Shown here in pieces: positions 8,115-62,681 of a DNA stretch of 64,000 bases (positions within the stretch are counted from its first letter, which is position 1; every line of letters starts with the position of its first letter). Where the stretch lies: positions 34,633,328 through 34,697,327 of the forward strand of contig NC_091146.1 of the NCBI RefSeq assembly GCF_041381155.1, read 5' to 3'. Source of the stretch: Argopecten irradians (Eukaryota > Mollusca > Bivalvia > Pectinida > Pectinidae). The notes below the pieces were generated by a model. It saw only the letters and a program-made list of their open reading frames with translations. It ran no database searches and was not told where the DNA came from. The position numbers and the translations under genes were made by a program.

Positions 8115-11100
8115 TTAATTGTCTTTATACGTCACGATTTGAATGGGTGCCACCTCACAAACGTCATCGAATGATGCGCACGCAAATCCTTTGCCGCCAA
8201 CGACAGATAGACACACGAAACAGAACATACATCTGCACGATCGGTTCGAACAAATCATGTATTTGCAGTTGTTCTCATATTCAATGAAGTTGCCACATTT
8301 TGGGCATGCGCGTCGGACAGGACATCCTTTGATATTGCCCACTTCCGTTCTTTTGCAGTCCGTCAGCAACCTTTGCGCCATACTTTTATCACACGCATGC
8401 TCTAATGTCCAGTTTTCGTGACAATACCAACAAAATTGGAATCCATTTTCGCAATTCGTGCAGCGCACACACGCATCTGCGATACTATGACGTTTGCATT
8501 CTACAAGACAAACTGGGCATCTTTGTGTTTTGGCGGAGTAGTTCAGGTTCATCAGCGATTCGAAAATAACCCGTTCATCAGTGGACAGACATGCCTTCTT
8601 GGTGACTTCCTGGATCGTCCATGTCACGTTGCAACACCCTTCGTCCTCTAGACACCGAAAAGATGGTTGCTCATTTGTGATTTGGTTCCAACAGTGTCTG
8701 TAGAGTTTTTCCTGTGCTAAAAACAGAGAAAAAACATTGCGTAATGGCTACTAAATATTTTCTTTAAAGAATAATTCCACACTCTGTCAGTTAAATTACT
8801 GATCATTGATACAAAAACCCACAAAAAGATATATGAACAAAGAAGACAACAACATGCTTAGTCTCGTGTTAACGTTGTGAACTCCAGATTATTATTTATT
8901 TTAAAATGGTTTCTGTTTGGTTAACTTTTGAATTAAAACAGCATACAGGCAAACGGACGAACGTAAACATGAACAGACAGACAGGCGAACGGACGGACAC
9001 ATACACAGAAAGACGGGTGAACGGACAGACATATACACAGATAGACGGGTGAACAGACAGACGTATGAACGGACAGACACAAACAGATAGACGGACAGAC
9101 ACATGAACATAGAGACGTACGAACGGACAGACACATAAACAGATAGACGGACGCACGGACAGACACGAACATATAGACGTGTGAACGGACGGACACATAA
9201 ACAAATTGACAGGCGAACGGACAGGCTGACGTGCGAACGGACTGACACATACACAGATAGACGGACGAACGGAAGGACACATGAACAGATAAGCTGGTGA
9301 AAGGACAGAGGTGAACAGATAGACGGACGGACACATAAACAGATAGACGGGCGAACGGACAGACACATCAACAGACAACCACGCACACTCAAACAGGGAA
9401 AACATACGGACACATATATGGACGGGCAAACAGACGGACACATCAACAGACAACCAGGCACACTCAAACACAGAGACAGGACAGAAAAAAGGACACTGAA
9501 AACTTACAGATCTCATGTCCACATGACATGGAAATCTTTCGTCCATCGTTCTGAAAGTTCGGAGTTACTTTCCCTGCTCTTCGAATGTTTCGCACAACCA
9601 CATGTAGAGGGCGTAGAATGTCCTTCACCAACGTGCTTCCGGCAACCACACCGACTCTATCTACAATGGTAACGTATCTTTTGTTTTTTCCGACGACAGT
9701 TGCTATGGCAACCCTAGCTTCATCCACTGTGCTGTTCTGAAAAAAGAAAATTACGATTTCTGGATTATGTTCTATAACTTTAAACCAATTGCTGTATGAT
9801 ACATCTTTATTTAAAATTTATTAAGTTTTCAGAGGAAGAATACATTTTTTTATTTTTTATTGAAGATATAACGAAATTTTACAGATATTATCAAAGACTA
9901 AACAGCTTACCATTGTGAAATCTGCATAAGTAACGGATGACGTACCAAGACGCTTGAAACTCCCCTCCGTGCCTATACGATTAAAAAACCCATGTAAATA
10001 TTAATGAGTCATATGGTGAACAAAATAGAAAAAAAAAAACTTTATATGATTTTTGTTAAAGAAAATCTAAGATATTATTTATAACATAACAAAGAAAAAT
10101 AATTTCAAAAGGTTAAAATAGTTGTTATTACGCTACATACTGTACATCTTTACATGTCAAGGCAATATAATATACATTACACTCTTTAGACGTATGTCGT
10201 TATCGCTTGGTAGGCGAAGGTGCATACTGTATAAGATAACAAATATTTGTAGAATAGTCATGATCGTTGTTACTTTCGAACCACGAATAAAAAATAAATA
10301 AAAAAAAGTTTAGTTCATTAATTATCGTAGTCCATTTATATGTTAACCACGATTATTTCTACACATGGAGTGATTTGTAAACTCCAAAGCACGGGAAAAA
10401 ATAATCAATGATATAAAAAAAATAATATACGAAACATATAACGAGCCAAATTGTAAAAAAAGTACCCGCGAATAAATCATGTTTTACAGTAAATAAGTAA
10501 GTAACCAGGATACCAGAATGAGTTTCCTACCTTTCCTGGTTTTGCCTCTTCCCTCCCTTAGCCGCTCACCAATCGTTCCAGTGTCGCCTGGAATTGGCAT
10601 CACACGGGGACGTTTTGGTCTGCTATGTTGGTCCTCGATTAACTTCGAAGTCACAGACCGTGTCTGTATCGTTCGCTTGATTGGTTTAGTTGACTTCCGT
10701 TTAGATGACCCCGACTTCTTCATTCTGTCATCACCGGAGCTGGAGAAAGGTCCTGGTGATGATCCCGTGGGGTTGTCGCTGTCGGTTCTCGTTCCGTCAG
10801 GTATGTGGCTTTCTGTTGAATTCTGTGTCGTCTTTTGGACTGAATTTGACACTTCCAGTCCCTGATCCGCCGGCATTGGCACAGGTGCCGGCCCTAGGTT
10901 TTGGTTATTCATTTCCAATCGGCTTTCACAGGGAGTTGTCCTATCCTGTATGTTCTCCGTATCTATATTTTGACACAATTTGAACCTTTGAACAATATCA
11001 CAAAACCACTTATAAGATATATCAAGATCATCTAAAGGACAAAGTTTCAGTTCATCAGAAATGTCCTTTTGTTTTTCTTTGCCAATCTCCAGAACAACTT

Positions 11101-11923
11101 CAATGCAGGCAAATTTCTGCAAGTGCGTAATACATCTGACCAAATCGTCGCATTTCTCATTTCTTTGTTGACACCATGTTTCCTTGGCTCTGCACTGGTC
11201 CAAATTGACAATGAACGGGACGGGATGTTCTATGATATAGCGATAGACACTTTGGGCCTTCTTATAGTCCGCCATCTTCTTCTTCAGTCCAACCTTCTGG
11301 GTTAGCAGCATCTCCATGTAGTCGTTAGCTTTCTTCTTGATGTCCATGAGTGTATGGTCAACATGTCGGTCTGTTCTTCCCATTTCACACACATTCACCT
11401 CACAATCTTCGCAGTAGAAATCGAAACGCTTCTCGTGGGATTTACACATATTCACGCTTATGTTTCCAACCAAGATTTGAAATAACCCGGGTGTCAGATA
11501 TTTTTTAGCACATGCCACATGGCCTGGCTCCGAATGTATTTCTTTAATGCTACCCTCACATGGGAGTTTCCTGCATGTTTGACACAACCATAGATAACAA
11601 TTGACACATATATATGGATACCGAACCGTATGATGACATCCACGGGATTCACACTCATAACGTGTAGTATTCACAGTATCTAGTAACGACTGAAGAGCTT
11701 GTGGCGCGTCTTTCAGCTCAGGTGGGTTCTGTAATTCCTTTGTACATTTCGGACATTTTATACAATCTTGTGATCGAAGATCATGGAAAGCATGGTTTAT
11801 GCATTTGCGACAAAAGATACAATGACATTCCAGTTGTTTAGGCTCCTTCAGTTTATGAGAGCAAAACGAACACAACAGTATGTTTGTGTCTTCGTGGTGC
11901 TGTGTCTCTTGGGAGGTGTCCAT
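8115..11923 (-). CDS. Predicted TRIM-UBL-RBR fusion E3 ligase (gene A)
   Basis: Four exons on the minus strand: 11923-10531, 9972-9911, 9736-9508 and 8716-8115. All have GT donors, AG acceptors and matching phases, giving 761 codons plus a stop. Residues 18-60 form a RING (C18, C21, C33, C35, C38, C41, C57, C60; C35 stands where His is usual). Two B-boxes follow (about 88-145 and 158-195), then a coiled coil (about 195-290) and a Ser/Lys-rich linker with a basic KRKSTKPIKR. Exons 2-3 encode a ubiquitin-like region (about 466-535). The rest is a divergent RING1 (around MSCGHEI), an IBR (about 628-670) and a RING2 (699-731) with the thioester cysteine in NNCKYMIC at about 712. The fusion is inferred from splicing: exon 2 has no start codon of its own, whereas the homologous exon of genes B and D begins with Met. 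The alternative is two genes, a TRIM reading on to a stop at 10484 and a separate RBR. Confidence 0.68.
8936..9470. repeat. GACGGACAGACA-type minisatellite in intron 3 of gene A
   Basis: About 530 bp of degenerate 24-30-bp units around GAACGGACAGACACAT and AACAGATAGACGG. It fills most of the intron between exons 3 and 4 of gene A. Long Cys/Val/Pro-rich frames on the minus strand (over 200 residues) are repeat-driven and have no domain, so I do not call them genes. Confidence 0.85.
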
Positions 11924-12189
11924 CTTTGTTGTCTTTGTTGAACCTGCATACCAATTAATATTTTCTTTTATAAATACACAATAAATAAATAAATAAATAT
12001 AAAAATAAAATAAACTTCTTAAAATACAGCGTATAAAGGATGTTTAATGAGCGTTTAATATTTGAAAATGAACATTAATTCATTTATTTACTGATATAGT
12101 GATTATTTTCGCTTAATTTGATTATCTTTTCATTACAAGATCATCTAGACATTTTTTCATCCATTGATCATCTGAAACAATTTTACATC
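11924..12189. other. Proximal upstream region of gene A
   Basis: Short AT-rich region between the gene A start codon and the 67-bp satellite. I see no TATA box or ISRE-like motif, so the promoter may lie farther upstream or use an unseen non-coding exon. Confidence 0.35.
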
Positions 12190-24136: not shown

Positions 24137-24718
24137 ATGCAGATTATGCTACAAGCAGGCACGGGTGGCAGGACACAGTTAATAGATATGGAACCGGTAA
24201 GTTCCCATTGTTTTTGTTAATAAGTTTGTGTTAGATGTCATGTCCAGAAACCTTCAATTCAAATTTACTTTAAAAAATTGAGTTGGGAAAAATATATTTA
24301 CTTTAAGTGGTTTGCGCTGTGAGTAAAGGAAAAAAATGAATTTTATTTACCTTACATATTTACATAGATCTATTTTTTTAAAAGAAAATTGTTTTGTGAA
24401 ATAAAAAAAAAGATGAAACTGGGCATAAATGTCTAGAATGTTAATATTCTTACGTGTAGGAGTTCTATGCCAATCCTTTTATACCGATAAAAGTACTTAA
24501 ATCCTATATAATTTCTCCTTCAGGGCGAGAAGATGTCTTCGTTATTCCAGAAGATCTCTGACATACGCGGTGTAGAAAAAGAACACTTACAAGTGGTGTA
24601 CGCCGGAAAAACATTTCGATACGGAGATCAAAGGACTGATAGTAAAACCATCGCCGACTTAGGCATGAAAGATCGGTCGATGGTACAGCTGGTTACTAGG
24701 TTACCAGGAGGTCAATAG
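24137..24718 (+). CDS. Free ubiquitin-like protein with C-terminal diglycine (UBL-1)
   Basis: Two coding exons, 24137-24196 (20 codons, donor GTAAGT) and 24524-24718 (acceptor TTCAG), give 84 aa. It begins MQIMLQAGTGG and aligns along its whole length with ubiquitin (MQIFVKTLTGK) with one inserted residue. The ubiquitin AGK48 (here YAGK) and the end R72-L73-x-G75-G76 (here RLPGG) are recognisable, followed by one extra residue, Gln, where processing would be needed. R74 is replaced by Pro and I44 by Val. A conjugated modifier would be activated by an E1 at the exposed diglycine. The fold and ending support that, but divergence from ubiquitin is high, so it is not a ubiquitin gene copy. The closest known parallel in logic is an ISG15-like or other stress-induced modifier. 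ISRE-like motifs lie upstream. The start is chosen because it matches ubiquitin Met1 and UBL-2. Confidence 0.82.
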
Positions 24719-30081: not shown

Positions 30082-30137
30082 AATTACCTACATTAGAAAA
30101 CTCACTACATATCAAGCAAATAATGTGATACATATGA

Positions 30138-30260: not shown

Positions 30261-30765
30261 TCATCGTGCTTCATTCCTACAAAACAGTGATAAAATTCCA
30301 CCAGGAACGCGGAAAACCAAGAATATAGTTGATCTGTCAATAAAGCCAGCTTGTGCAATAGTTTGTGTGCCTCTGCTTAAGGTTTGGTGTGTAAATTGCT
30401 TCTTTAAGTATAAAAAGCTTATCTGTTCTTCTGGTAACCCTTCATGTTCAGCTATGGCTTCGATTATCGTAATCAGCCTATCGTTCTGTGTGAAAACAAA
30501 ATCCAATAGTGTATAGAAAACTCATTGAGGTCCAGAAAATGTACACAAGTGAACAACGGAGTATGTTAAAAGGAATCCAACATGTTTCATGTATTTATGT
30601 TGCTGATAGGAGCATAAATATAAAACAGTTCAATGTATAAAATTTCAAGAACCATCTGATTAGCTGAAAAATATTGTCATCTAATAAAAGAAAATCCATA
30701 CTTACGGGACTGATATTAATGGGGAAAGATCCGCCCTTCATTTTGCTTGAGACTATTAGCTGCAT
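30261..30765 (-). CDS. Free ubiquitin-like protein with diglycine and tail (UBL-2)
   Basis: Two exons on the minus strand, 30765-30706 (20 codons, donor GTAAGT) and 30485-30261 (acceptor CACACAG), give 94 aa. It begins MQLIVSSKMKGG. The second exon carries the ubiquitin-type helix (about DRLITIIEAIAEHEG), a LKKQ near ubiquitin K48, and FRVPGG, in which the arginine matches R72. Eleven residues (ILSLFCRNEAR) follow the diglycine, so a protease would have to expose it before activation, as for precursor forms of ubiquitin, SUMO or ISG15. The intron position and phase equal those of UBL-1. The ATG lies 12 bases after an AG in TTTGGAACAG, suggesting a non-coding first exon farther upstream. It is head-to-head with gene B, about 1.95 kb apart. 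Confidence 0.78.
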
Positions 30766-36720: not shown

Positions 36721-36850
36721 AATAATATGATTTATTGGCACGTATGAGTGAAACAGACTTGTATTTAGAGTATAAAGATAAAAGGCAATTCTCACTGATA
36801 AATATTCCTTTATAGTATTGCGTCACCTCCTAATTATTGACAGAATATTA

Positions 36851-36997
36851 TCAGGCTTCATTCCTACAAAACAGTGATAAAATTCCAGCAGGAACGCGGA
36901 AAACCAAGAATATAGTTGATCTGTCAATAAAGCCAGCTTGTGCAGTAGTTTGTCTGTCTGTGCTCAAAGTTTGTTGTGTATATTGCTTCTTTAAGGA
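36851..36997 (-). pseudogene. Broken duplicate of UBL-2
   Basis: The C-terminal half of UBL-2 exon 2 is present (LKKQYTQQTLS to FRVPAGILSLFCRNEA), but the diglycine has become Ala-Gly and the tail ends one residue early. Homology stops near 36997, so the helix part and first exon are missing. The shared poly(A) signal is retained. An unrelated extension upstream keeps the frame open by chance. Confidence 0.8.
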
Positions 36998-37124
36998 TGT
37001 ATGAATGTCAGAGGTCAATTTTTCAGAATATTTTAAAAGAAGAAATAATGCTGAATTCAATTCTGGAAAGAAAACAGTATATCGCTGAGCTCGTATTTAA
37101 ATACCTATACCTATTTAATGTCTT

Positions 37125-38240: not shown

Positions 38241-38570
38241 CAGAAATCTACCACAACCAGTAATTACTAAGTATGAGTTTAATCAGTAAAAGTCAATCAA
38301 CTCATTAATTAATTAATAGAAAAATATGAGATTGATGTTTTAATTTTTTCTAGTAACACCCGATAGCTGAGACGGGTATAGATATAAATTGATATAATCA
38401 TATGACATATATCACATGGCTTCCTTTATCTGCAATGATTTCGTTGATAATTTTTTTTAAGAAATATAATATAATCTAAATGATACCCGTACACACTACA
38501 CAACCTTCCAAGATGTCCCTTCGTATGTACCAACGCCTTAGCGAGTCTCGGGAAAGAAGGGTATGCCTAA

Positions 38571-39265
38571 TGTTATGTATGACACTAAATACATGTAGTT
38601 ATGAGATAAGGGAGATAACTCCTATAGCTTTTTTTATCAATACATCCTATGAAGGTCATATCATTTAACTTTCTAGAATATAATCATGTATAAACAAATA
38701 TGTTTGTAAACATGTTGAGTTTAAGTAGAGATCTAGAATGATCTATTTCCAGAAAGTTATGTGTGTTTACTTGTTTACTGTTTTTAGTTAGATATTTCTA
38801 GAAGTAGAAGGTTCTCCAATATTCTTGAATTACGGTTTAGCTATATATACTCCAGCTGTCCAAGGCTAATCAGAACTGTAATGAGACCTGTAATAAGACA
38901 TACCAAGAATTGTACAGCGCCATATAAGATTCTATTGGGAGAGATATGTGTGACTTTATCTGTGGATTATTACAACACTTTGTGTGGATTTATTCATATT
39001 GCCTGGAACTTTACAAATCATCGGTGGACATTCAATTTCCTTGTGGATTTGTGATTATTGTGAATTTGAAACCTGGAAGGATCAAGGATTATACCAGGAC
39101 ATTCGCATACAGATAAGTTACACTTTAAATCATCGTATTACTCTTGTACCACCACCAATTACTTTAGATATTGTAAACCATCTCTGTATAATATTGTATA
39201 TATAATTAAATGTGTTTTTGAATTTAGCTGCTGGTTTCTCCTTTCTGTTATTCGTTAATGTAACA
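38571..39265 (+). repeat. 5' LTR
   Basis: Begins TGTTATGTATGACAC and ends TTCGTTAATGTAACA (TG..CA ends). Nearly identical to 48020-48729. Confidence 0.92.
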
Positions 39266-42125
39266 GAATTGGGGGCTCGTGTCCGAGATCGATATTTAAT
39301 TTGTGAAATCTAACTTTGAAAAATTAATTTAGAAATCGTCAAAATTTGTGTTTAAACTTGGAGTTTACATTTGAAACCAACAGCTAGATTAACATGACTA
39401 CTATGCAGGTAGAACAGTTTGTTAAAGCGCCATCCCTGGATGTTCTTTTGCAAGTTACTAAGAAGGATTTATTGTTATTGAGTAAACATTTAGGCCTAGC
39501 TATCAAAACTAATTTGAGGAAAGCTGAAATTCGGAATGTAATTATAAGATATTTTGTTGACAATGGCAAATTTGACTCTAGTGCATTAGATAGTATAGAG
39601 GAAACAGTCACTTCAGAAATCCAAATTAGACAAATGGAACTTGAACATGAAATGAAAATGAAACAAATAGAGAAAGAAATGAGAGAAAGAGAAATAGAAA
39701 AGGAGTTAAGAGAAAAAGAAATAGACAAAGAAAGAGAGTTAAGAGAAAAAGAAATAGACAAAGAAAGAGAGTTAAGAGAAAAAGAAATTGAGAAAGAATT
39801 AAAAGAAAAAGAGAGAGATCAGATGTTAGAGCTAGAGAAGCAAAAAATTCAAGCTGAAACAGAACTTAGAATTAAAGAATTAGAACTAGCTTCTCAAGAC
39901 AGTTCAAGTAATCCAACTTTTAGGGGTTTACAAGGAAACAGAGGTTTTGATGTCAGTAGAAACATTAGGTTAGTTCCTCCTTTTCAAGAGAAAGAAGTTG
40001 ACAAGTATTTTATGCATTTTGAGAAAATAGCTGACAGTATAAAATGGCCTGAAGATAAGCTTACAATGCTTCTTCAGAGTGTCTTGATTGGTAAAGCTAG
40101 AGACATTTATTCTTCTTTATCTGTAGATGAGATTTCAAATTACCAAGTAGTCAAGAAAGCTATTTTGAAAGCTTATGAGTTAGTTCCTGAGGCTTACCGC
40201 CAGAAATTTCGAAACTCGAGAAAGAGAGATGAACAAACTCATGCAGAATGTGCCAGAGAAAAAGAACAATTATTTAATAGGTGGTGTGATTCTAAAGAAA
40301 TTGATGAGGATTTCGGTAAATTGAGGCAATTATTGTTGATAGAGGAGTTAAAACGTTGTGTCCACACAAACATAAAAACTCATTTAGATGAGAGAAAAGT
40401 TGAAACACTTAGTGAAGCAGCTACAATGGCTGATGATTACGCTCTCACCCACAAAGGCTCATTTGTTAAAAACAGTTCTCAAGACAAAAACAGTACCACA
40501 GGTACTAGTAAATTTGGTCAGCCTAGGAACCCAACCTTTAGTGGCCCTTCCAACGACAAACCTAAATTAAGTGATAAGACTAAGTCTGATTCTAAAACAG
40601 ATCATAGGGCAGGTGTGGGGTCTCCTTCTGGTCCTGTTTGTAATTACTGCAAGAAAGTAGGGCATGTTATGTCTGAATGTTATTCTCTCCAGCGTAAGGA
40701 GCAAAGGCGTAAACAGTCAGTTCCTTCTGTGTTAGCTATGTCAAAGCCTAGTCAGAAACTTAGTGATATTGTGGAAGATTCTAAAGTGTCTGTTGAGATT
40801 AAGAGCTCAGAGTCTGATAGTGTCTTGGAGAAGTACTCTCCCTTCATTTCTGAAGGTTTTGTTTCACTTACTAGTGATATTACCAACTTGAAACCTGTGA
40901 AGATTTTGCGAGATACTGGGGCTTCTCATTCTTTGATATTAGATGGCGTAGTGCCTTTGTCTGAGGAGACCTCATCTGGTAGTAGTGTTTTGCTTCAAGG
41001 TGTAGAGTTAGGTTTTGTTAATGTGCCTCTCCATTGTGTTTATTTAAAGTCAGACTTGGTTACTGGGCCTGTCACCATTGGTGTTAGACCGGAACTTCCC
41101 ATAGAGGGCGTGTCGCTCATTTTAGGCAATGACTTGGCTGGAGAGAAAGTTAGGGTAGATCCCTTAGTGTCCAGTATCCCTGATAAAAACAGATGATGCT
41201 GAGACTATTCAACAGGAATTTCCTGGTATTTTCCCTTCTTGTGCTGTAACTCGTTCAATGAGTAAGAAGGTTTCTGATGTTGCAGTAGTTGAGGATCATT
41301 ATAGTCCAGGGTTAGGTGACACTTTCTTGGCTCATGATATAGAGGATATCGGGGGCAAGTGTGATCTTTTGAGCAATCCTGTAGACTTTGATAGTGATAG
41401 AGTTGTTCCTAACAAGGGTACTTCTTTGTCTGACATGATGAGTAAATCGTCTTTGTCTAGAGAGGAGCTTATAGTAGAACAGGAGAAAGATCCTGAAATC
41501 TCCTTATTGTGTAATCGGGCTTTGAGTGAGGAAGAGGCTGAGAAAGTCCCGGTTTGTTACTTCCGTCAGTCAGGTGTGTTGATGCGCAAGTGGCGCCCCC
41601 CTGATGTGTCTCCCGAGGAAGACTGGAAGGTTGTCAATCAAATAGTTGTCCCACCGAGGTATAGGCAAGATATTCTAAGTTTGTCTCATGATGTACCTAT
41701 GGCAGGGCATCTAGGTGTGACCAAGACTTATAACAGGATCTTAGATCACTTCTTTTGGCCCAAGTTGAAACGGGATGTGGCTGATTTTTGTAGGTCTTGT
41801 CATACTTGTCAGGTGGTAGGGAAACCTAATCAGAAAATCCCTGTTGCACCTTTGCACCCCATTCCAGCATTTGAGGAACCATTTAGTAGAGTCATTATAG
41901 ACTGTGTAGGTCCTCTACCCAAAACTAAGTCTGGGAATGAGTATCTTTTAACTATTATGTGTGCTTCCACACGCTTTCCTGAAGCCATTCCACTCAGAAA
42001 TATTAAAGCCCCTAACATAGTCAAGGCTTTGGTTAAATTCTTTACATTGGTTGGTCTTCTAAAAGCTGTCCAATCGGACCAAGGTTCGAATTTCATGTCT
42101 GGTATTTTTCAACAAGTCATGTACC
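39266..42125 (+). mobile_element. First, incomplete internal copy (gag, protease, integrase)
   Basis: Nearly identical to 42943-45820 at the DNA level. It covers the primer site, gag, protease and most of integrase, and lacks the reverse transcriptase part. Treated as a broken fossil. Confidence 0.88.
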
Positions 42126-42573
42126 CAGCTCCAGATCAACGTGCCAGACATAGATGGTGGAGGAAAGCCGGAGTAGGTTGACAAGGGCATGTGAACTGGA
42201 ACAAAAGAAAATTTGGCCAGCAGAAAAAAACATCCGATCTGTCAGTTCCACGCAAATGGCCAGCTTGCATGTAGGATTATGCCTCGCGACCCAGAGGAGA
42301 TGGATTGTGGTAATGTGTCATTTCATCTTAGATACTTTATCGCGACCCCACATAGCATTTAAGCAGCAGAAATCTACCACAACCAGTAATTACTAAGTAT
42401 GAGTTTAATCAGTAAAAGTCAATCAACTCATTAATTAATTAATAGAAAAATATGAGATTGATGTTTTAATTTTTTCTAGTAACACCCGATAGCTGAGACG
42501 GGTATAGATATAAATTGATATAATCATATGACATATATCACATGGCTTCCTTTATCTGCAATGATTTCGTACC
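42126..42573 (+). repeat. Mosaic block: copied host flank inside the element
   Basis: This block repeats the host DNA that lies just left of the 5' LTR (about 38050-38452, SINE included), with a short internal piece of the element embedded. Host flank inside the element is not expected from simple transposition. Confidence 0.8.
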
Positions 42574-42942
42574 AAGACATACCAAGAATTGTACAGCGCC
42601 ATATAAGATTCTATTGGGAGAGATATTGTGACTTTATCTGTGGATTATTACAACACTTTGTGTGGATTTATTCATATTGCCTGGAACTTTACAAATCATC
42701 GGTGGACATTCAATTTCCTTGTGGATTTGTGATTATTGTGAATTTGAAACCTGGAAGGATCAAGGATTATACCAGGACATTCGCATACAGATAAGTTACA
42801 CTTTAAATCATCGTATTACTCTTGTACCACCACCAATTACTTTAGATATTGTAAACCATTTCTGTATAATATTGTATATATAATTAAATGTGTTTTGAAT
42901 TTAGCTGCTGGTTTCTCCTTTCTGTTATTCGTTAATGTAACA
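42574..42942 (+). repeat. Partial LTR inside the element
   Basis: Matches the right half of the terminal LTRs (from AAGACATACCAAGAATTG to GTTAATGTAACA), followed by the primer-site sequence again. Confidence 0.88.
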
Positions 42943-45900
42943 GAATTGGGGGCTCGTGTCCGAGATCGATATTTAATTTGTGAAATCTAACTTTGAAAAA
43001 TTAATTTAGAAATTGTCAAAATTTGTGTTTAAACTTGGAGTTTACATTTGAAACCAACAGCTAGATTAACATGACTACTATGCAGGTAGAACAGTTTGTT
43101 AAAGCGCCATCCCTGGATGTTCTTTTTGCAAGTTACTAAGAAGGATTTATTGTTATTGAGTAAACATTTAGGCCTAGCTATCAAAACTAATTTGAGGAAA
43201 GCTGAAATTCGGAATGTAATTATAAGATATTTTGTTGACAATGGCAAATTTGACTCTAGTGCATTAGATAGTATAGAGGAAACAGTCACTTCAGAAATCC
43301 AAATTAGACAAATGGAACTTGAACATGAAATGAAAATGAAACAAATAGAGAAAGAAATGAGAGAAAGAGAAATAGAAAAGGAGTTAAGAGAAAAAGAAAT
43401 AGACAAAGAAAGAGAGTTAAGAGAAAAAGAAATAGACAAAGAAAGAGAGTTAAGAGAAAAAGAAATTGAGAAAGAATTAAAAGAAAAAGAGAGAGATCAG
43501 ATGTTAGAGCTAGAGAAGCAAAAAATTCAAGCTGAAACAGAACTTAGAATTAAAGAATTAGAACTAGCTTCTCAAGACAGTTCAAGTAATCCAACTTTTA
43601 GGGGTTTACAAGGAAACAGAGGTTTTGATGTCAGTAGAAACATTAGGTTAGTTCCTCCTTTTCAAGAGAAAGAAGTTGACAAGTATTTTCTGCATTTTGA
43701 GAAAATAGCTGACAGTATGAAATGGCCTGAAGATAAGCTTACAATGCTTCTTCAGAGTGTCTTGATTGGTAAAGCTAGAGACATTTATTCTTCTTTATCT
43801 GTAGATGAGATTTCACATTACCAAGTAGTCAAGAAAGCTATTTTGAAAGCTTATGAGTTAGTTCCTGAGGCTTACCGCCAGAAATTTCGAAACTCGAGAA
43901 AGAGAGATGAACAAACTCATGTAGAATTTGCCAGAGAAAAAGAACAATTATTTAATAGGTGGTGTGATTCTAAAGAAATCGATGAGGATTTCGGTAAATT
44001 GAGGCAATTATTGTTGATAGAGGAGTTAAAACGTTGTGTCCACACAAACATAAAAACTCATTTAGATGAGAGAAAAGTTGAAACACTTAGTGAAGCAGCT
44101 ACAATGGCTGATGATTACGCTCTCACCCACAAAGGCTCATTTGTTAAAAACAGTTCTCAAGACAAAAACAGTACCACAGGTACTAGTAAATTTGGTCAGC
44201 CTAGGAACCCAACCTTTAGTGGCCCTTCCAACGACAAACCTAAATTAGGTGATAAGACTAAGTCTGATTCTAAAACAGATCATAGGGCAGGTGTGGGGTC
44301 TCCTTCTGGTCCTGTTTGTAATTACTGCAAGAAAGTAGGGCATGTTATGTCTGAATGTTATTCTCTCCAGCGTAAGGAGCAAAGGCGTAAACAGTCAGTT
44401 CCTTCTGTGTTAGCTATGTCAAAGCCTAGTCAGAAACTTAGTGATATTGTGGAAGATTCTAAAGTGTCTGTTGAGATTAAGAGCTCAGAGTCTGATAGTG
44501 TCTTGGAGAAGTACTCTCCCTTCATTTCTGAAGGTTTTGTTTCACTTACTAGTGATATTACCAACTTGAAACCTGTGAAGATTTTGCGAGATACTGGGGC
44601 TTCTCATTCTTTGATATTAGATGGCGTAGTGCCTTTGTCTGAGGAGACCTCATCTGGTAGTAGTGTTTTGCTTCAAGGTGTAGAGTTAGGTTTTGTTAAT
44701 GTGCCTCTCCATTGTGTTTATTTAAAGTCAGACTTGGTTACTGGGCCTGTCACCATTGGTGTTAGACCGGAACTTCCCATAGAGGGCGTGTCGCTCATTT
44801 TAGGCAATGACTTGGCTGGAGAGAAAGTTAGGGTAGATCCCTTAGTGTCCAGTATCCCTGATAAAACAGATGATGCTGAGACTATTCAACAGGAATTTCC
44901 TGGTATTTTCCCTTCTTGTGCTGTAACTCGTTCAATGAGTAAGAAGGTTTCTGATGTTGCAGTAGTTGAGGATCATTATAGTCCAGGGTTAGGTGACACT
45001 TTCTTGGCTCATGATATAGAGGATATCGGGGGCAAGTGTGATCTTTTGAGCAATCCTGTAGACTTTGATAGTGATAGAGTTGTTCCTAACAAGGGTACTT
45101 CTTTGTCTGACATGATGAGTAAATCATCTTTGTCTAGAGAGGAGCTTATAGTAGAACAGGAGAAAGATCCTGAAATCTCCTTATTGTGTAATCGGGCTTT
45201 GAGTGAGGAAGAGGCTGAGAAAGTCCCGGTTTGTTACTTCCGTCAGTCAGGTGTGTTGATGCGCAAGTGGCCCCCCCCCCCCCCTGATGTGTCTTCCGAG
45301 GAAGACTGGAAGGTTGTCAATCAAATAGTTGTCCCACCGAGGTATAGGCAAGATATTCTAAGTTTGTCTCATGATGTACCTATGGCAGGGCATCTAGGTG
45401 TGACCAAGACTTATAACAGGATCTTAGATCACTTCTTTTGGCCCAAGTTGAAACGGGATGTGGCTGATTTTTGTAGGTCTTGTCATACTTGTCAGGTGGT
45501 AGGGAAACCTAATCAGAAAATCCCTGTTGCACCTTTGCACCCCATTCCAGCATTTGAGGAACCATTTAGTAGAGTCATTATAGACTGTGTAGGTCCTCTA
45601 CCCAAAACTAAGTCTGGGAATGAGTATCTTTTAACTATTATGTGTGCTTCCACACGCTTTCCTGAAGCCATTCCACTCAGAAATATTAAAGCCCCTAACA
45701 TAGCCAAGGCTTTGGTTAAATTCTTTACATTGGTTGGTCTTCCAAAAGCTGTTCAATCGGACCAAGGTTCGAATTTCATGTCTGGTATTTTTCAACAAGT
45801 CATGTACCAGCTCCAGATCAAGCAGTATAAGTCTAGTGCTTATCATCCAGAGTCTCAGGGTGCTTTAGAACGTTTTCATCAGACATTGAAGAATATGATG

Positions 45901-48019
45901 AGATCTTATTGTTTTGAAAACAAAAGAGATTGGGACGAAGGTATACACATGTTGTTGTTTGGCGTTAGAGAATCTGTACAAGAATCTCTTGGCTTCAGTC
46001 CCTTTGAACTTGTGTTTGGACATACTGTACGTGGTCCTTTGAAAATTTTGAAAGACAAAATTTTGGACGAAGATTCTAAAATAAATCTCTTAGAGTATGT
46101 GTCTAACTTTAAGCAAAGGTTGACAAGGGCATGTGAACTGGCAAAAGAAAATTTGGCCGTTACTCAAACCAAAATGAAAGCATGGTATGATAAAGATGCC
46201 CGTACAAGAAGTTTTGATCCAGGTGACAAAATTTTGGCTCTATTACCAATACCGAGTCAGCCTTTGCAAGCTAGATATTTTGGACCTTATGTTGTTGAGA
46301 AAAAGGTCGATGATGTTAACTACATTGTACAAACTCCAGGGAGGCGCAAGAAAACTCAATTATGTCATGTTAATATGCTTAAGAAATATGTAGATAGAGA
46401 AGAGAGCAAGACCTCTCAACCTATTGCTACTTTGGCCTCTGTACCATCACAAAGTGAAAGTACAGCTGATATTTGTAAATTAGACTTAGATGGTTGTGTA
46501 CAAGATGTAGGTTTAGACTGTGGTGTTAAGTTACGGAATTCAGATGTGCTCGCGAACTTGGACAAGAAACTGTGTCATCTATCAGAAAAGGAACGCAATG
46601 AACTGAAAGATTTGATACTTGAGTTTAAACATTTGTTTCCGGATACACCAGGCAAAACAGATGCTATCTATCATGACGTGGATGTAGGCGATGCGCCACC
46701 TGTCAAGCAACATCCTTACCGTGTCAATCCTTTGAAAGAAGAACACTTAAAGAAAGAAATTCAATACATGTTGGACAATGATATTATTGAACCAAGCAAA
46801 AGTGAATGGAGCTCTCCATGTGTTCTGGTACCAAAGCCAGACAAGACATACCGGTTCTGTACTGACTTCAGAAAAGTAAACTCTGTCAGTAAAACAGACT
46901 CTTATCCAATTCCAAGGATTGACTCGTGTATTGACAAAGTTGGCAAAGCCAAGTACGTAAGCAAGTTTGACCTGTTGAAAGGATATTGGCAGGTGCCATT
47001 AACAGAAAGAGCTTAAGAAGTGTCGGCATTTGTAACCTCACAAGGTTTGTACCAGTATAAAGTTATGCCGTTTGTTATGAAGAATGCCCCGGCAACACAT
47101 TTCAACGTCTTCTTAACAGCGTGATATCAGACCTGGAAGGTTGTGATGGATACATCGATGACGTCATCAACTACCACGACACGTGGGAAGACCATCTACG
47201 CGGGATTCGTGAATTCTTCGAAAGACTCACTACCATGAAATTGACTGTAAACTTATTGAAATGTGAATTTTGTCATGCAACTGTTGAATTTTTAGGCCAT
47301 GTTGTAGGACAGGGGCAGGTTAAACCTGTTCAGGCCAAAGTAGAATCAATTATAGATTTTCCAACTCCTGGAGGCAAGAGAGAGCTGATGAGATTTCTTG
47401 GTATGGCTGGATACTACAGAAAATTTTGTCAAAATTTCTCTGTTATAGCAGCTCCACTTACTGCTTTGTTAAAGAAAAATGTCAAATTTGTCTGGTCAGA
47501 CGAATGTAAGTCTGCCTTTGAGAAATTGAAAGCCATACTATCAAACTCACCAGTTCTGACTGCTCCAGATTTTAATAAACAGTTTAAACTGTTTGTTGAC
47601 GCCAGCGATGTAGGTGTTGGTGCTGTTTTGATGCAAGAAGGTACTGAAAAAAATGACCACCCAATTTGTTATTTCTCGAAAAAGTTTGACAAACACCAGA
47701 GAAATTATTCCACCATTGAGAAAGAATGTTTAGCGTTGATTTTGGCCTTGAACCAATTTGATGTATATCTCTGCACTACAGTTGTGCCTGTGTTGGTCTT
47801 CACCGACCACAACCCTTTGACATTCATTGGGAAAATGAAAAACAAAAATCAAAGAATTCTCAGGTGGAGTTTGACTTTGCAAGAGTACAATCTTGACATC
47901 AAACATATCAAAGGTAAAGACAATATTCTGGCTGATGCTTTATCAAGGATTTAAATATGACTTAATATTTGAAGAAAGTTTCCTTTTCAAGAAAACTTTC
48001 TTTTCTTTAAGGAGGGGTG
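42943..48019 (+). mobile_element. Second internal copy (gag, protease, integrase, reverse transcriptase, RNase H)
   Basis: Holds the full order of parts described for the whole element and ends in the purine-rich AAGGAGGGGTG just before the 3' LTR. Differences from the first copy are few. Broken fossil. Confidence 0.88.
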
Positions 48020-48729
48020 TGTTATGTATGACACTAAATACATGTAGTTATGAGATAAGGGAGATAACTCCTATAGCTTTTTTTTATCAATACATCCTAT
48101 GAAGGTCATATCATTGATTTAGGTTATAGAACTTTCTAGAATATAATCATGTATAAACAAATATGTTTGTAAACATGTTGAGTTTAAGTAGAGATCTAGA
48201 ATGATCTATTTCCAGAAAGTTATGTGTGTTTACTTGTTTACTGTTTTTAGTTAGATATTTCTAGAAGTAGAAGGTTCTCCAATATTCTTGAATTACGGTT
48301 TAGCTATATATACTCCAGCTGTCCAAGGCTAATCAGAACTGTAATGAGACCAGTAATAAGACATACCAAGAATTGTACAGCGCCATATAAGATTCTATTG
48401 GGAGAGATATTGTGACTTTATCTGTGGATTATTACAACACTTTGTGTGGATTTATTCATATTGCCTGGAACTTTACAAATCATCGGTGGACATTCAATTT
48501 CCTTGTGGATTTGTGATTATTGTGAATTTGAAACCTGGAAGGATCAAGGATTATACCAGGACATTCGCATACAGATAAGTTACACTTTAAATCATCGTAT
48601 TACTCTTGTACCACCACCAATTACTTTAGATATTGTAAACCATCTCTGTATAATATTGTATATATATAATTAAATTGTGTTTTGAATTTAGCTGCTGGTT
48701 TCTCCTTTCTGTTATTCGTTAATGTAACA
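48020..48729 (+). repeat. 3' LTR
   Basis: Same ends as the 5' LTR. The CTAA target duplication follows at 48730-48733. Confidence 0.92.
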
Positions 48730-48763
48730 CTAATGGTAAGTGTAATGTAATTACGTCAATTAC

Positions 48764-48928
48764 TTCTCCTTCTTCTTCTTCTTCTTCTTCTTCTTCTTCT
48801 TCTTCTTCTTCTTCTTCTTCTTCTTCTTCTTCTTCTTCATCATCATCATCTTCTTCTTCTTACTTTCTTTCTTTCTTCTTTTTCTTCTTCTTCTTCTTCT
48901 TCTTCGTCTTTTTCTTCTTACTTTCTTT

Positions 48929-48964
<36 letters not shown>

Positions 48965-48966
48965 TT

Positions 48967-49001
<35 letters not shown>

Positions 49002-49035
49002 TTCTTCGTCCTCTTCTTTCTTCTTCTTTTTCTTC
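48764..49035. repeat. CTT microsatellite in intron 1 of gene C
   Basis: About 270 bp of CTT repeats with CAT and CTTT interruptions. The Lys/Arg-rich minus-strand frame is a product of the repeat. From about 49100 the intron becomes alignable with intron 1 of gene B (AGAATAGCTCAAAATAAAGC against AAAATAGCTCAAAATAAAGC). Confidence 0.9.
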
Positions 49036-49699
49036 TTCCAACGTAACCAAAATAATCAAATTTAAATCTGAAATTATTATGGTCATGAGTTTTAATTTGT
49101 ACTTTTTACAATATATGTAGTTAAAATTATTCGTATTTTTATGTCAAAAAGCTATCTTTGATTTAGAATAGCTCAAAATAAAGCACGCCATCATACTTAA
49201 TTTTAATTCCATTTCCTTCTTGTGAACTCCTGTTTCTAAAATCTATATTCTTAGCAGAGAAGATCAGATAAAGTTTCTGTAACTTACTTTGTTCCAATAG
49301 CATTAATGTTTTATATGTAAGAAGTGAATATTTAACAAAAGCATCGCTATACTGTATGTTTAAGTTGTGTGTTTACACACAAAGCTTGAAGTACTACATT
49401 ATTTTTCAATTGTGTATCAAGATAGTTAGCGTTGGTAATAGTCTAAGTTATAATGTATAATACTCAGCAATCTTAAATATATAAACGCGAGAGAAGTTTT
49501 AGTTTTCAGTTATTTTATATTGTTATGGTGATTTTGTCTCTTACAGAGTAACACCACCAACGGAGTGTGTACTGTAGCTTCAAGCAGCTGTGAATATAAA
49601 CATAACATCAACGTTGTCGGTGTAAAGGGAGGAGAACTGGTGTCAGGATCTGTTAGCGCAACACGCACAACACAAGTGGTAGTGCACAATGATAACTGA

Positions 49700-50640: not shown

Positions 50641-50765
50641 GGTCGGTACAAAATGCAGATAATTATCTCTGATACAACTACGTGGATATGTTCTCGTTGA
50701 TATACAACCAGATTATCATTTCATCCATGGAGATAAACTTCGTACTTTGTTTGAATTAAAGACAA
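50641..50765 (+). pseudogene. UBL scrap (exon 1 fused to start of exon 2)
   Basis: GGTCGGTACAAAATGCAGAT matches the UBL-3 exon 1 region with its ATG intact (MQIIISDTTTW), but runs into TGA after 15 codons. GATAAACTTCGTACTTTG at about 50733 matches the start of UBL-3 exon 2. The intron between them is gone, so this is a deleted duplicate. Confidence 0.7.
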
Positions 50766-52129: not shown

Positions 52130-53940
52130 ATCCAGATTATTATCGTATCAACCGTTCCTAAAAGAACATTTACAGTTGACGTAAATCCAGTAAGTACGAG
52201 ATATCATTTTTTCCATTTGTAAGTTTTAAGAAAACAATTGACATGTCAGGTTTTCTTTCATATCTACAGGTGTAATACTGGTTTATCTCTCATACAGGTG
52301 TAATACTGGTTTATCTCTCATAAATATGCAATATTGGTTTATCTCTCATAGAGGTGTAATACTGGCTTATCTATCATACAGGTGTAATACTGGTTTATCT
52401 ATCATACAGTTGTAATACTGGTTTATCTCTCATACAGGTGTAATACTGGTTTATCTATCATACAGGTGTAATACTGGTTTATCTATCATACAGTTGTAAT
52501 ACTGGTTTATCTCTCATACAGGTGTAATACTGGTTTATCTATCATACAGGTGTAATACTGGATTATCTCTCATACGGGTGTAATATTGGTTAATCTCTCA
52601 TACAGGTGTAATACTGGTTTATCTCTCATACAGGTGTAATACTGGTTTATCTATCATACGGGTGTAATATTGGTTTATCTCTCATACAGGTGTAATACTG
52701 GTTTATCTCTCATACAGGTGTAATACTGGTTTATCTCTCATACAGTTGTAATACTGGTTTATCTCTCATACAGGTGTAATACTAGTTTATCTATCATACA
52801 GGTGTAATACTGGTTTATCTCTCATACAGGTGTAATACTGGTTTATCTCTCATACGGATGTAATACTTGTTTATCTATCATTCAGGTGTAATACTGGTTT
52901 ATCTCTCATACAGGTGTAATACTGGTTTATCTATCATACAGGTGTAATACTGGTTTATCTGTCATACGGGTGTAATACTGGTTTATCTATCATACAGGTT
53001 TAATACTGGTTTATCTATCATACAGGTATAATACTGGTTTATCTGTCATACGGGTGTAATACTGGTTTATCTATCATACAGGTGTAATACTGGTTTATTT
53101 ACCATACAGGTGTAATACTGCTTTATCTCTTATACAGGTGTAATACTGGTTTATCTATCATACAGGTGTAATACTGGTTTATCTCTTATACAGGTATAAT
53201 ACTGGTTTATCTATCATACAGGTGTAATACTGGTTTATTTATCATACAGGTGTAATACTGGTTTATCTCTCATACAGGTGTAATACAGGTTTATCTCTCG
53301 TACAGATGTAATACTTGTTTATCTCTCATACAGGTGTAATACTTGTTTATCTATCATACAGGTGTAATACTGGTTTATCTCTCATACGGGTGTAATACTG
53401 GTTTATCTATCATACAGGTGTAATACTGGTTTATCTATCACACAGGTGTAATACTGGTTTATCTATCACACAGGTGTAATACTGGTTTATCTATCATACA
53501 GGTGTAATACTGGTTTATCTATCATACAGGTGTAATAATGGTTTATCTATCATCTCGTGACGTCAATGCGTCAACATAGACATATTATCCTTCATATCCA
53601 CATATAATAGAGTCTTATAGTATTTATAATTCACTTTTATCCTATTGTTTTTATTTATATTAAATTACTTATAAGACAAATAAGACCACATCCGGGAAGG
53701 AATTGTTTTTTTCTTAATATCATGTACCATTTTATGTCTTTTGTTTTACAGGATGATAAACTACGTACTTTGTTCAAAGTAATGGCAAAAGAAATGGATT
53801 TTCCTGTGGAAAGTATTTGTATAATGTTTAACGTAAAGTGTTACACGTTCAACAAACAGAACCAAGAACTAACTGTAGCTGAAATCGGCATGCAGGACAG
53901 ATCAACAGTTCAAATGATTTTGAAATGTGAAGGATCATAG
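52130..53940 (+). pseudogene. UBL without start codon or diglycine (UBL-3), probably decayed
   Basis: Exon 1, 52130-52189, is exactly 20 codons as in UBL-1 and UBL-2 (IQIIIVSTVP to VDVNP, donor GTAAGT), but ATC stands where ATG is expected and no in-frame ATG precedes it. Exon 2, 53752-53940 (acceptor TTTTACAG), encodes the helix DKLRTLFKVMAKEMDF, then EIGMQDRSTVQMIL as in UBL-1, and ends KCEGS in place of RLRGG. Without a diglycine it could not be conjugated. Its frame is otherwise clean, so a role as a non-conjugated UBL with an alternative start remains possible. The intron is filled by a 28-bp minisatellite. Confidence 0.72.
52268..53552. repeat. 28-bp minisatellite, about 46 copies
   Basis: The unit CAGGTGTAATACTGGTTTAT plus CTATCATA counts 28 bp, with CTA/CTC and CAGGT/CAGTT variants. 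It fills most of the UBL-3 intron. Confidence 0.95.
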
Positions 53941-58808: not shown

Positions 58809-59018
58809 TTCGTCAGTATAAAATACGGATTAATTCATTTGTCGTATTCTATAAAAGTGGTAGTTTCTGCTCCTGCTTAGCAATCAGCATAAAATGACAT
58901 TCTGATTGAAAATACAGATTCTTATAACCACTCCGTTCAATAGTGGATCTGACAAACTCCCATAAGGGGTCATGTTCGGATGACCTCTTACAACGTGTAC
59001 TTTGCTACATCAATTTAA

Positions 59019-59587: not shown

Positions 59588-59599
59588 CCTAATGTAACT

Positions 59600-62500
59600 T
59601 CATGACAAAATGCAAGATTGACTACTATCGTTTTTAACACGAGATTGCCCAGGTGTACCTAAATCCTGTACAGGCGCCACAGTACACACGGTGTCGTAAG
59701 CTCCACAGGAAAAACCGTTGGGTCCCTTCACATTCAGACAGATGAAACAAAACTCACACTTACACCAGAAACACGTCATCAGCTTACAATGGATCGAATG
59801 TTCAATAAGGGCATGGCACTTTGGACAAGCGCGCAAGCTTGGACACCCTGAAACTCCATAGATCTTCTTCTTTTTGCACGATTTAAGAACTCGTAATACC
59901 GTGTCTGTGGTGCAGCTATGCATATCCTCCCATGGCTTCATACAAAACCAACAGAATTCGTACTGACCTTGACCTTTGTCATGACCTTGACTTTGACCTT
60001 GACTTTGACATGCTCTTCTACAGAATGTACAAACTACTCGCGGATTCGAGGTACTTTGACGTTCACAGTTTACGTGACAGTTTGGGCATTGTCGGATATC
60101 ATCGGAACAATACAGGCAGTTCCGGTTGATACGGGATTCAAATAGTATCTGCTCATCAACTGACACACACGCTTTGTCGATTACATCCTGGAAAGTCCAC
60201 ACTGCACCACAGACTTCCCCTCTCCCACTTTGGTCGGCAAAGCAGTGGAAACTGGTGGCCCGGTCTGTCAGTTTGGTCCAACAATGTCTGTATAAATTGT
60301 CCGGAGCTGTAAAATATACAGATAAACAATGGCCTTTACGGATGATAATTCAATTTTGCTTGTAACAAGCATTTTCATTGGCTTAAAAATTTACTTTATC
60401 AGCCCGTAAAGGAAAAAATGACGTTGCCGTTTGTAACGTCCCTTCTGATTGGCTGATATCACGGCGTAATGATTTCACAGAAAAAGAGTACCAAAATGAA
60501 TTCGGAATTTTGAATAAAATATCGTTAGTAAAATGAATTATAAGGATTAGTTTGAATATATTTTTTCATCTTATGGAGATATAACACAAAAATCTGCGTG
60601 TACTCTCATCTTAAACCGCTTCGCCGTTTATTTAGAGTACGCTCACATTTCTGTGTTATATCTCCATAACATAAGAAATATATTCAAGTTAATGATGACG
60701 GTATGTACAACTGTAATTCATGTTAAGTAGTTCATATTATTTTGTTCTTCAGAATTTAAGCCTAACTAATAAAAATGTGAATGATGGGCGCATATATATT
60801 AATAACAATCCATGCGATGTTGTAAGGAACATTCTCATTGGATTGAATATTGCATCATCTTACGACGTAAAAATGACGTGGCAATTTGCAACGGTGCCTT
60901 TGATTGGCTGAGTAAATGGTGTAATGATATTCTAGAAAACATTCTTTCATAAATTAAGATTTTTATAGGATGGAATTGAATTATAAGGATAAACTTGCAT
61001 ATCTTTTTTTATCGGAAATGCATATAAAAAGATTGGCAACTTCGGCACTTTTGCAATCAGTACAGTGACACATGTATGTACAATAATGCATCTAGTGACT
61101 TTTCCCTGTGATATTGAGGATAAAACAAAACAGAAAAAAAAAAAGAAAAACACAACTACATGTATGGTTGAACACTTTAAAAATATATATGATAAGCATA
61201 CTTATGGCGTGACCACACGGCATAAGACATCTCGGATCAGTCTCACAGGGGAACACAATATCCTTTTCATCTGTTCGTAGCCGAGGTGGTGGTGTCCGAT
61301 TAGAGTTATGAACAACCACCGATAGAGGGCGCGGCAGGTCACTGATATCACGTGACCCTTCTACCAGTAGACTGTTTTTATCGACAATGTCAATGTTATG
61401 TTTATCTTCACCCAATGCTGACGCAATGGCTGACTTGATGTCAATAAAAGTGCCCGTCTGTAAGAGAAAACATCTTTTAATTTCTCAGTAACTTTTAGCA
61501 ATTGAAAGACCCATTACCTTTCCGGAGCAAAACATAAAGGTTTCTTAAAAACATCAATTACATCCTAAAATATGTACCGATGGCCTAAGATGAGGTTACA
61601 ACACCAAACATATGCAATATATGAATACAGTGGAGATTCATTTCACTGTTTTGCCTGATGGCGCAGTGATAGTCAACGACCGCGCGGTATTTAGGACGAA
61701 GACGGGAAACATAATATGTTATGAAAATTAACATTTTATTTATTTAAATTAAATTGTTCAGAAGTTGATAATAAGTCTAGTATTAACAGTAAGTTAATAA
61801 CTTTTGCGACTCTGCAAAATTATCGATCTCGTTTTACATTCCCATTTTAAAAATTAAAAGCCGTTTCGGAAAGGTGGTGTGTCTTTAAAGTGAATAATCG
61901 GGCAAATGATTCTAAAGTCGGTAAAACTAAGACATCCAGTAGCTTATTAAATAGCTTAATAAATCCCATCAAAATCCCTCTGTATGCGAAGAAATTAATT
62001 CATATTTTAGAAATCCTAAAACGTCCTCTCGGCTGGCTATATATATATACATGTAAGTCCGTATTAACATTTCCACGCAGCTTCGCTTTCCAAGAGTTGA
62101 GTGAATTTATTTTTAGAACTGTGCTAAAACAATGGGCTTTTCCATAATTCCAATGGACAAAACTGGACAATGTTACATAAGCAGAACTTGTCCGTCGTTT
62201 TGATATGTAAGATGATTGGAAGGCCAATGAACGCATTTAGACTGGTTTTCTTTGCCCGACTACTCACTTTAAAGTTGGGGGTTTGGACTGTTTGCATTCG
62301 TCATTCTGACTTAACAGAGTTACTTCCCTTTGTTACATTCTATCCAATCGGAACACCTCGGATGTGCATGACCTCTGATCGGAATGTACAGTACTAGGTG
62401 CAATAATACATAAAAAAACTAAACATTTTCTTCGTTTGGAAACCTAATTACCCCCTAAGTGTATGTTTGAAAATGAAGAGTTATTGAAAATTGTAATGAA

Positions 62501-62681
62501 AAGTACTATAATAGCCTTATTTTAAGAAATGGAGTGCAATCGTTTCTCATTCGAGACGCACGACACACGAGGGGTATAGTGTATCGGTGGCACTGAATCA
62601 GATTTGATAATTACTCACCCTTGGAATGCTGACACGCCTGACCTGTGATTCACTCAGCCGTTGAAATGTAACATCATCCAT
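59600..62681 (-). CDS. UBL-RBR E3 ubiquitin ligase (gene D)
   Basis: Three minus-strand exons, 62681-62619, 61457-61202 and 60306-59600, with GTGAGT and GTATGC donors and TTACAG/TTTACAG acceptors, give 341 aa. The N-terminus (VTFQRLSESQ, then FIDIKSAIASALG, NIDIVD and LSVVVHN) is the ubiquitin-like domain, with its intron at the same place as in B and the free UBLs. A divergent RING1 (CLMPCGHAI, LYRHCW) follows, then an IBR (about 180-238, CPNCH to FCWFC) and a RING2 (267-297, ACPKC to FCFIC) with the catalytic cysteine in IHCKLMTC (C280). An insert in the IBR (CQSQGQSQGHDKGQGQ) is encoded by a degenerate TGACCT repeat and is absent from A and B. An ISRE-like site lies 64 bp upstream of the ATG. 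Expected role: ubiquitin or UBL transfer through a Cys intermediate in the cytosol. No membrane segment seen. Confidence 0.85.
60552..60690. repeat. Inverted repeat in intron 2 of gene D
   Basis: TTGAATATATTTTTTCATCT and TATGGAGATATAACACA pair with TGTGTTATATCTCCATA and ATATTCAA on the right. One arm recurs at 55235-55310. Two GATTGGCTGA-containing segments (about 60400-60490 and 60835-60930) are also related to each other. Confidence 0.65.
61504..61888. mobile_element. MITE family 3, copy 2, in intron 1 of gene D
   Basis: Ends GAAAGACCCATTACCTTTCC and CGGAAAGGTGGTGTGTCTTT, interior aligned with 16238-16644. Confidence 0.7.

Follow-up and report, generated by a model that had tools for sequence, protein, structure and literature searches.

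Diglycine ubiquitin-like genes beside UBL-RBR ligase genes in the scallop Argopecten irradians: a possible modifier and ligase cluster

In the bay scallop, Argopecten irradians, genes for free ubiquitin-like proteins (UBLs) bearing a diglycine (GG), namely UBL-1, UBL-2 and UBL-4, are separate neighbours of genes for RBR ligases whose own UBL lacks GG. The explanation favoured here, tentatively and at somewhat under an even chance, is that these genes form a tandem cluster of the scallop lineage derived from a family of UBL(GG)-RBR fusions, the free UBLs being conjugable and the adjoining RBRs their likeliest ligases. Conjugation of the free UBLs, with local RBRs acting as ligases, is what we infer from the genes. 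New ubiquitin-like modifiers are rare, and the joint origin of a modifier and a ligase is an open question. The fused family and its split version are both present in one genome; therefore, recognition by a ligase of a domain formerly attached to it becomes directly testable.

A sequence-only reading of the window (the whole stretch of 64,000 nucleotides that was analysed) listed RBR genes A, B and D, an RBR relic (C), a pair of free diglycine UBLs, a further UBL lacking diglycine and two UBL scraps, and this inventory was borne out. The members lie in the window as described, but the cluster is not confined to it: a third diglycine gene, UBL-4, lies directly outside on the right, and an RBR, P0006, lies about 34 kb away on the left. 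All ten introns of genes A, B, D, UBL-1, UBL-2 and UBL-3 are GT-AG, and one intron site, in phase 0 after strand 2, is common to the free UBLs and the UBLs of the RBRs. Local duplications are visible at the DNA level within the cluster. The window also holds retrotransposons and satellites, and repeats have broken up the locus.

Gene A (8115..11923, minus strand; 761 aa) is a four-exon fusion in which a RING/B-box half is followed by a UBL and then an RBR, with exons at 11923-10531, 9972-9911, 9736-9508 and 8716-8115 and intron phases 1, 0 and 1. An RBR gene had been recognised here, but the gene is larger than first described, in that splice phases and the protein P0032 include the RING/B-box exon (11923-10531); on the same two grounds, the idea that this exon is an unrelated TRIM gene was rejected. 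P0032 is an uninterrupted frame of 761 aa on a 3372-nt contig, identical to gene A at 738 of 761 residues. In Pfam searches of gene A the zf-B_box match stands at the cut-off and the RING-like stretch below it. The union of a RING/B-box half with an RBR is of interest in its own right, since no description of such an arrangement was found in the portions of the literature searched, a paper on TRIM evolution among them.

Genes B and D are simpler UBL-RBR genes, each identical letter for letter to a deposited A. irradians protein. Gene B (32716..34928, plus strand; 309 aa; exons 32716-32775, 33879-34131 and 34312-34928) corresponds to P0007, and gene D (59600..62681, minus strand; 341 aa; exons 62681-62619, 61457-61202 and 60306-59600) to P0001, for which the AlphaFold2 model has a mean pLDDT of 82.8. 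Relic C (38528..49696, plus strand) is confirmed as a relic but has a greater extent than was proposed, a further remnant of exon 1 (38528-38563) lying ahead of that of exon 2 (49544-49696); an RBR exon belonging to it was not found. Its flanks resemble gene B (32683-32767 with 38479-38564, and 33769-34035 with 49424-49703), and the two remnants are separated by DNA that includes two Ty3/gypsy copies.

UBL-1 (24137..24718, plus strand; exons 24137-24196 and 24524-24718) encodes 84 aa ending in LVTRLPGGQ and a stop, and UBL-2 (30261..30765, minus strand; exons 30765-30706 and 30485-30261) is a predicted free UBL of 94 aa in which FRVPGG is followed by an 11-residue tail. Together with the predicted gene UBL-4, they have their own start, their own stop and a ubiquitin-type tail, R-x-P-G-G, followed by 1 (UBL-1), 11 (UBL-2) and 38 (UBL-4) further residues, a pattern that reads as that of a precursor. 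The diglycine of a free protein or cleavable precursor is thus present in these three and absent from UBL-3 (52130..53940, plus strand; exons 52130-52189 and 53752-53940), which ends in KCEGS. UBL-3 is indeed a UBL without diglycine, as had been noted, but it also lacks a start codon, ATC standing at the expected position, and is decayed. A beta-grasp fold is indicated by Pfam ubiquitin matches above the cut-off for UBL-1 (7e-8), the joined exons of UBL-3 (5.3e-8) and UBL-4, and just short of it for UBL-2 (5.3e-5). One scrap (36681..36998, minus strand) is a copy of the 3' portion of exon 2 of UBL-2 together with the flanking sequence, with 81.5% DNA identity to 30088-30411 and GG changed to AG; the other (50653..50760, plus strand), recognised by reading the sequence, comprises a UBL-3-like exon 1 and the start of exon 2, and is interrupted by stops.

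These assignments were examined with a profile built from 11 RBR-linked UBLs and ubiquitin, window sequences being left out. UBL-1 (E 1.1e-10), UBL-2 (8.3e-8), UBL-3 exon 2 (1.5e-4) and the scrap at 36.9 kb (0.009) came top among 1979 open frames, and 20 shuffles gave no match below 0.01. UBL-3 exon 1 scores 9.1 bits and the best shuffle scores reach 9.8 bits, so that this exon is called by its position and splice site. The free UBLs might have been stray N-terminal exons of RBR genes, a reading that was rejected: UBL-1 has its own start and stop, an uninterrupted frame (P0033, 99% identical, on a 1103-nt contig) and relatives of 84 and 86 aa in other scallops, and genes B and D possess first exons of their own. 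The intron-free frames of gene A and UBL-1 on short contigs are as expected of spliced mRNA. In the UBL tree the free UBLs group at 83/92, a moderate support to be read with the bootstrap not settled and with long branches meeting.

The RBR module has RING1, IBR and RING2 in the order of an RBR E3 ligase, with the RING2 catalytic Cys in all 23 aligned RBRs; a family profile of eight members matches ARIH1 across the three domains at 3.4e-9. The residue two past this Cys is His in 18 of the 23, B and P0006 included, Leu in D and Tyr in A; PMC11354881 states a role for that His. RING1 retains the ligands of only one of its two zinc sites: C102, H104, C128 and C139 occur in 23/23 rows and C115 in 21/23, and the first C-x2-C pair is absent, a departure common to the coral and fungal relatives. 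At the place of the fused UBL, the RBRs of the cluster have a degenerate UBL.

Searches of 845.8 Mb with UBL-1, UBL-2 and UBL-4 gave matches confined to one 41-kb stretch, apart from ubiquitin repeats matched by UBL-1; for UBL-2 and UBL-4, all five matches each fall within the cluster. Such searches could miss more diverged UBLs, UBL-3 itself scoring only E ~0.45. No matches were obtained with these three queries at the many other RBR-family loci of the genome. The proposal of a lineage-specific conjugation system, with its conjectural link to immunity, is upheld in part: lineage-specific, free, ubiquitin-tailed UBLs do lie among RBRs with a catalytic Cys. Two results speak against a self-contained set: none of 71 E2-domain matches, from the best 95 candidates scored, is on the cluster contig (C13), which leaves a set with its own E2 unsupported, and many RBR loci gave no match in the three UBL searches.

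In coral, fungal and other bivalve proteins that bear no family name, a GG-ending UBL is fused ahead of the same RBR; examples are P0010 and P0015 of Montipora, P0014 of Glomus, P0019 of Sinanodonta and P0021 of Mya. Such fusions are also present at other loci of the A. irradians genome (L038, C4, C258). The last six residues of UBL-1, RLPGGQ, are identical across the three scallop genera seen. In Mizuhopecten yessoensis the UBL-1 relative and a gene-A-type RBR, which groups with gene A at 99/98, are listed with the same contig size, 195,578, and because of this the linkage of UBL and RBR, a point raised for checking in relatives, appears to be kept in a second scallop genus. In the parts of the literature searched, including PMC3503706, PMC2904391 and PMC11354881, no description of a scallop or mollusc RBR-UBL cluster was found.

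In the favoured explanation, the ancestor would come from an older family of genes encoding an RBR ligase with a GG-ending ubiquitin-like domain fused ahead of it. The free UBLs would first lose the residues behind GG. A ubiquitin-type E1 would then activate them, in keeping with the Arg that they retain where ubiquitin has Arg72, and conjugation would go through general E2s. The likeliest ligases would be the neighbouring RBRs, chiefly B and P0006, in which the catalytic Cys and the His at the second position after it are both retained, and the GG-less UBL of the RBRs may serve as a docking or autoinhibitory domain. Counting against this explanation are the lack of E2 matches on the contig, the lack of the His in A and D, the half RING1, and the loss of GG and start in UBL-3. 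A fuller version, in which UBL-1, UBL-2 and UBL-4 split from the fusion ancestor to form a scallop-specific system, loaded on and transferred by the adjoining RBRs, with gene A a two-ligase fusion carrying a RING/B-box targeting module, is unlikely as a whole.

Because the UBLs and RBRs could share descent from a fused UBL-RBR gene, their neighbourhood is explicable without a shared reaction. Linkage would then reflect descent only, the UBLs being local partial duplicates of a UBL-RBR gene, the RBRs transferring ubiquitin and the UBLs, if conjugated, using other ligases. This has perhaps a third of the weight of belief: the common intron site, the visible local duplications, the restriction of detected UBL relatives to one tandem cluster and the many RBR loci found without these UBLs are all consistent with it, but the grouping of the genes seems to have persisted in a second genus despite the repeats and retrotransposons that break up the locus in A. 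irradians, and both parts form one protein in relatives. It is improbable that the free UBLs are unconjugated and regulate the RBRs in trans, either in place of their N-terminal UBL or in competition with it; the degenerate UBL of the RBRs and the GG lost from UBL-3 suit such a role, against which stand the precursor-like tails retained in UBL-1, UBL-2 and UBL-4 and the invariant end of UBL-1 in three genera. Least probable is a mostly decaying array, with a working UBL-1 and a few RBRs amid pseudogenes and no special system. Relic C, the two scraps, UBL-3, the retrotransposons and the satellites would fit such decay, but each of A, B, D, UBL-1, UBL-2 and UBL-4 keeps an open frame between its start and stop codons, the introns of those within the window are GT-AG, and A and UBL-1 are seen as intron-free frames.

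Parkin and HOIL-1/RBCK1 likewise have a UBL ahead of an RBR; we know of no free sibling UBL genes adjoining theirs. Pfam matches with E values as high as 1 included neither the RING0 of parkin nor the NZF of HOIL-1 for A, D, P0032, B (P0007) or P0006. The UBL similarity of Parkin and HOIL-1 is termed convergent in PMC3503706. Ariadne proteins (ARIH1/HHARI, ARIH2) provide the best solved-structure match over the RBR, with the catalytic Cys aligned, but the scallop RBRs have an N-terminal UBL and no first RING1 zinc site, and no Ariadne C-terminal domain is among their Pfam matches. The start of gene A resembles TRIM ligases, having a B-box match at the cut-off and a RING-like stretch that scores under it, but the protein continues with a UBL and then an RBR. 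Where the RING of gene A has Cys, His is usual in TRIM RINGs. ISG15 and FAT10 are lineage-restricted diglycine modifiers, as the scallop UBLs appear to be, but they are double UBLs with known enzymes, whereas the scallop UBLs are single and have candidate enzymes at most. The UBL(GG)-RBR fusions of Montipora, Glomus, Sinanodonta and Mya share the RBR module, the half-RING1 and the UBL position, and their UBL is related to the free UBLs. Unlike these single proteins, the scallop cluster has the GG-bearing UBL as a separate gene and a ligase UBL without GG.

The exon anatomy of the cluster is plain, and intron-free frames exist for both gene A and UBL-1. All three RBR genes named in the sequence-only reading are present as exon models: gene D (59600..62681, minus strand) is identical over 341 aa to the deposited Argopecten irradians protein P0001, gene B (32716..34928, plus strand) is equal to the deposited P0007, and gene A (8115..11923, minus strand) closely matches P0032. 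The UBL-RBR genes B and D have three exons each, of which exon 1 encodes UBL strands 1-2, exon 2 the remaining UBL and the start of RING1, and exon 3 the remaining RBR. Gene A has these three exons preceded by a large extra one, which holds a RING-like stretch and a B-box; splice phases 1, 0 and 1 join all four into a single 761-aa frame. The RING/B-box part is without a close relative in the genome search, its next best match showing 29% identity. P0032 has the same residue as gene A at 738 of 761 positions and is an uninterrupted frame on a 3372-nt contig of six member sequences, as would be expected of spliced mRNA; the contig's source tag, 'lgn', presumably denotes assemblies of sequencing-read archives.

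The two free diglycine UBLs and the UBL lacking the diglycine, claimed in the same reading, also held up. UBL-1 (24137..24718, plus strand; MQIMLQ...LVTRLPGGQ-stop) and UBL-2 (30261..30765, minus strand; MQLIVS...FRVPGGILSLFCRNEAR-stop) have frames of their own in genes of two exons, and the intron lies in phase 0 after strand 2, as in the UBLs of the RBR genes. Aligned with ubiquitin, both retain Arg at position 72, which in ubiquitin matters for E1 choice, and GG at 75-76. An intron-free frame 99% identical to UBL-1, P0033, lies on a 1103-nt contig. UBL-3 (52130..53940, plus strand) is without GG and its start position reads ATC. When 1979 frames were scored with a profile of ubiquitin and 11 RBR-linked UBLs from outside the window, UBL-1, UBL-2, UBL-3 exon 2 and one scrap ranked at the top, and 20 shuffles gave nothing at E < 0.01; UBL-3 exon 1, at 9.1 bits, scored lower than the best shuffle (9.8 bits).

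In RBR relic C (38528..49696, plus strand), two Ty3/gypsy copies stand in tandem (38571-48729) and separate one exon remnant from the other. Identity between the copies, 38895-42139 and 42574-45821, is 99.2%, their repeated ends agree at 97%, and the gag-like part matches Pfam SCAN (4.7e-12). Four long satellite arrays occupy 12188-15614 (67 bp units), 28936-30082 (44 bp units, directly downstream of UBL-2), 52261-53553 (28 bp units, inside the UBL-3 intron) and 55379-56114 (54 bp units). A dispersed repeat, with copies about 87-88% identical at 6228-6598, 16806-17164 and 58482-58810, is probably a small transposable element.

The window occupies C13:34,633,328-34,697,327 of the bay scallop assembly. 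Its flanks, examined for 100 kb on either side (20/20 stretches), contain two more members. RBR P0006 lies ~34 kb to the left (matched exons C13:34,595,880-34,597,173; first-exon frame L015:6218-6394), and UBL-4, a third diglycine UBL, lies 0.2-1.2 kb to the right (exons L019:185-244 and 939-1244). The C-terminal part of UBL-4 reads ...VSRLPGG, then 38 residues, and its match to Pfam ubiquitin (8e-6) is above the cut-off. Another fetched stretch, L022, gave one 20-residue frame at E 0.46.

At the sensitivity of the whole-genome searches, the cluster UBLs are confined to this locus. All five matches of UBL-2 (E up to 1) and all five of UBL-4 fell within UBL-1 to UBL-4 and the 36.9-kb scrap (36681..36998, minus strand), a copy of the 3' part of UBL-2 exon 2. 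UBL-1 had 24 matches, four being exons of UBL-1, UBL-2 and UBL-4 and 20 lying on C7 and C824, which carry ubiquitin repeats. Those at C7:26059820-26062786 are polyubiquitin repeats; those on the small contig C824 (14195-17173) are in part interrupted by stops. Only the best candidates were scored, and UBL-3, found at E about 0.45, was missed by UBL-1; more diverged UBLs may therefore exist elsewhere in the genome. The RBR family is widespread in the genome (59 matched stretches, nine contigs). Other RBR-family clusters occur at C15:32.54-32.63 Mb, C258, C4:37.34-37.42 Mb, C13:9.44-9.46 and 22.2-23.0 Mb, and C2:40.29-40.33 Mb.

Among other scallops, UBL-1 has relatives in Mizuhopecten yessoensis (81% identity, 84 aa) and Ylistrum balloti (75% identity, 86 aa), both with an RLPGGQ end. 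A second genus appears to have the linkage too. In M. yessoensis, the relative of UBL-1 (P0034) and an RBR (P0008) very probably share one contig, because the longest contig given in both records is 195,578 bases long. P0008 joins gene A, a long branch, at 99/98 in the tree.

The UBL and RBR of the cluster have relatives in which the two are fused. A UBL with terminal GG closely precedes the RBR in proteins from coral, fungi and other bivalves, and the fused form also occurs in the scallop genome, where an exon on C258 (L038) reads ...MQVSGG and continues into the RING1 start. On C4 and C258, UBL and RBR exons lie side by side and are related to P0012, a protein close to the coral fused proteins. 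In the alignment, the scallop-cluster RBR's own UBL ends without GG; it is predicted as a beta-grasp (94, 95, 91, 97, 91, 79 and 91 over seven ten-residue blocks), in a model of P0001 with overall pLDDT 82.8 and pTM 0.57. The UBL tree separates the scallop RBR-UBLs at 100/100 and groups the free UBLs at 83/92, with long branches and unsettled bootstrap. We infer that the free UBLs arose when part of a fused gene was duplicated.

The free UBLs are inferred to be processed, activated and conjugated; that the local RBRs are their ligases is the least certain part of the interpretation. Linkage alone is no proof of a joint reaction, because common descent from one fused gene suffices: with UBL exon and RBR both drawn from such a gene, adjacency would arise without any joint reaction. 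No description of such a UBL/RBR cluster was among the matches listed from the open-licence literature; the one pointer to a possible immune role is a general remark by Marin that TRIM and RBR tandem expansions may relate to the response to external aggressions (PMC3503706).

As to a ligase role for the RBRs, the catalytic Cys is present in 23/23 rows of an alignment of 23 of the 36 collected proteins (22/31 RBR matches and P0032; the four UBLs were omitted, as were P0016, P0020, P0023 and P0026-P0031, most of them short or partial). The His two residues beyond it is present in 18/23 rows, being replaced in D (Leu), A (Tyr), P0003, P0009 and P0025 (Gln). PMC11354881 gives this residue a part in deprotonating the acceptor lysine, and without it A and D could have weak or altered activity. 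RING1 retains the ligands of one zinc site only, likewise in the coral and fungal relatives. A profile of eight family members matches the full RBR of ARIH1 (3.4e-9).
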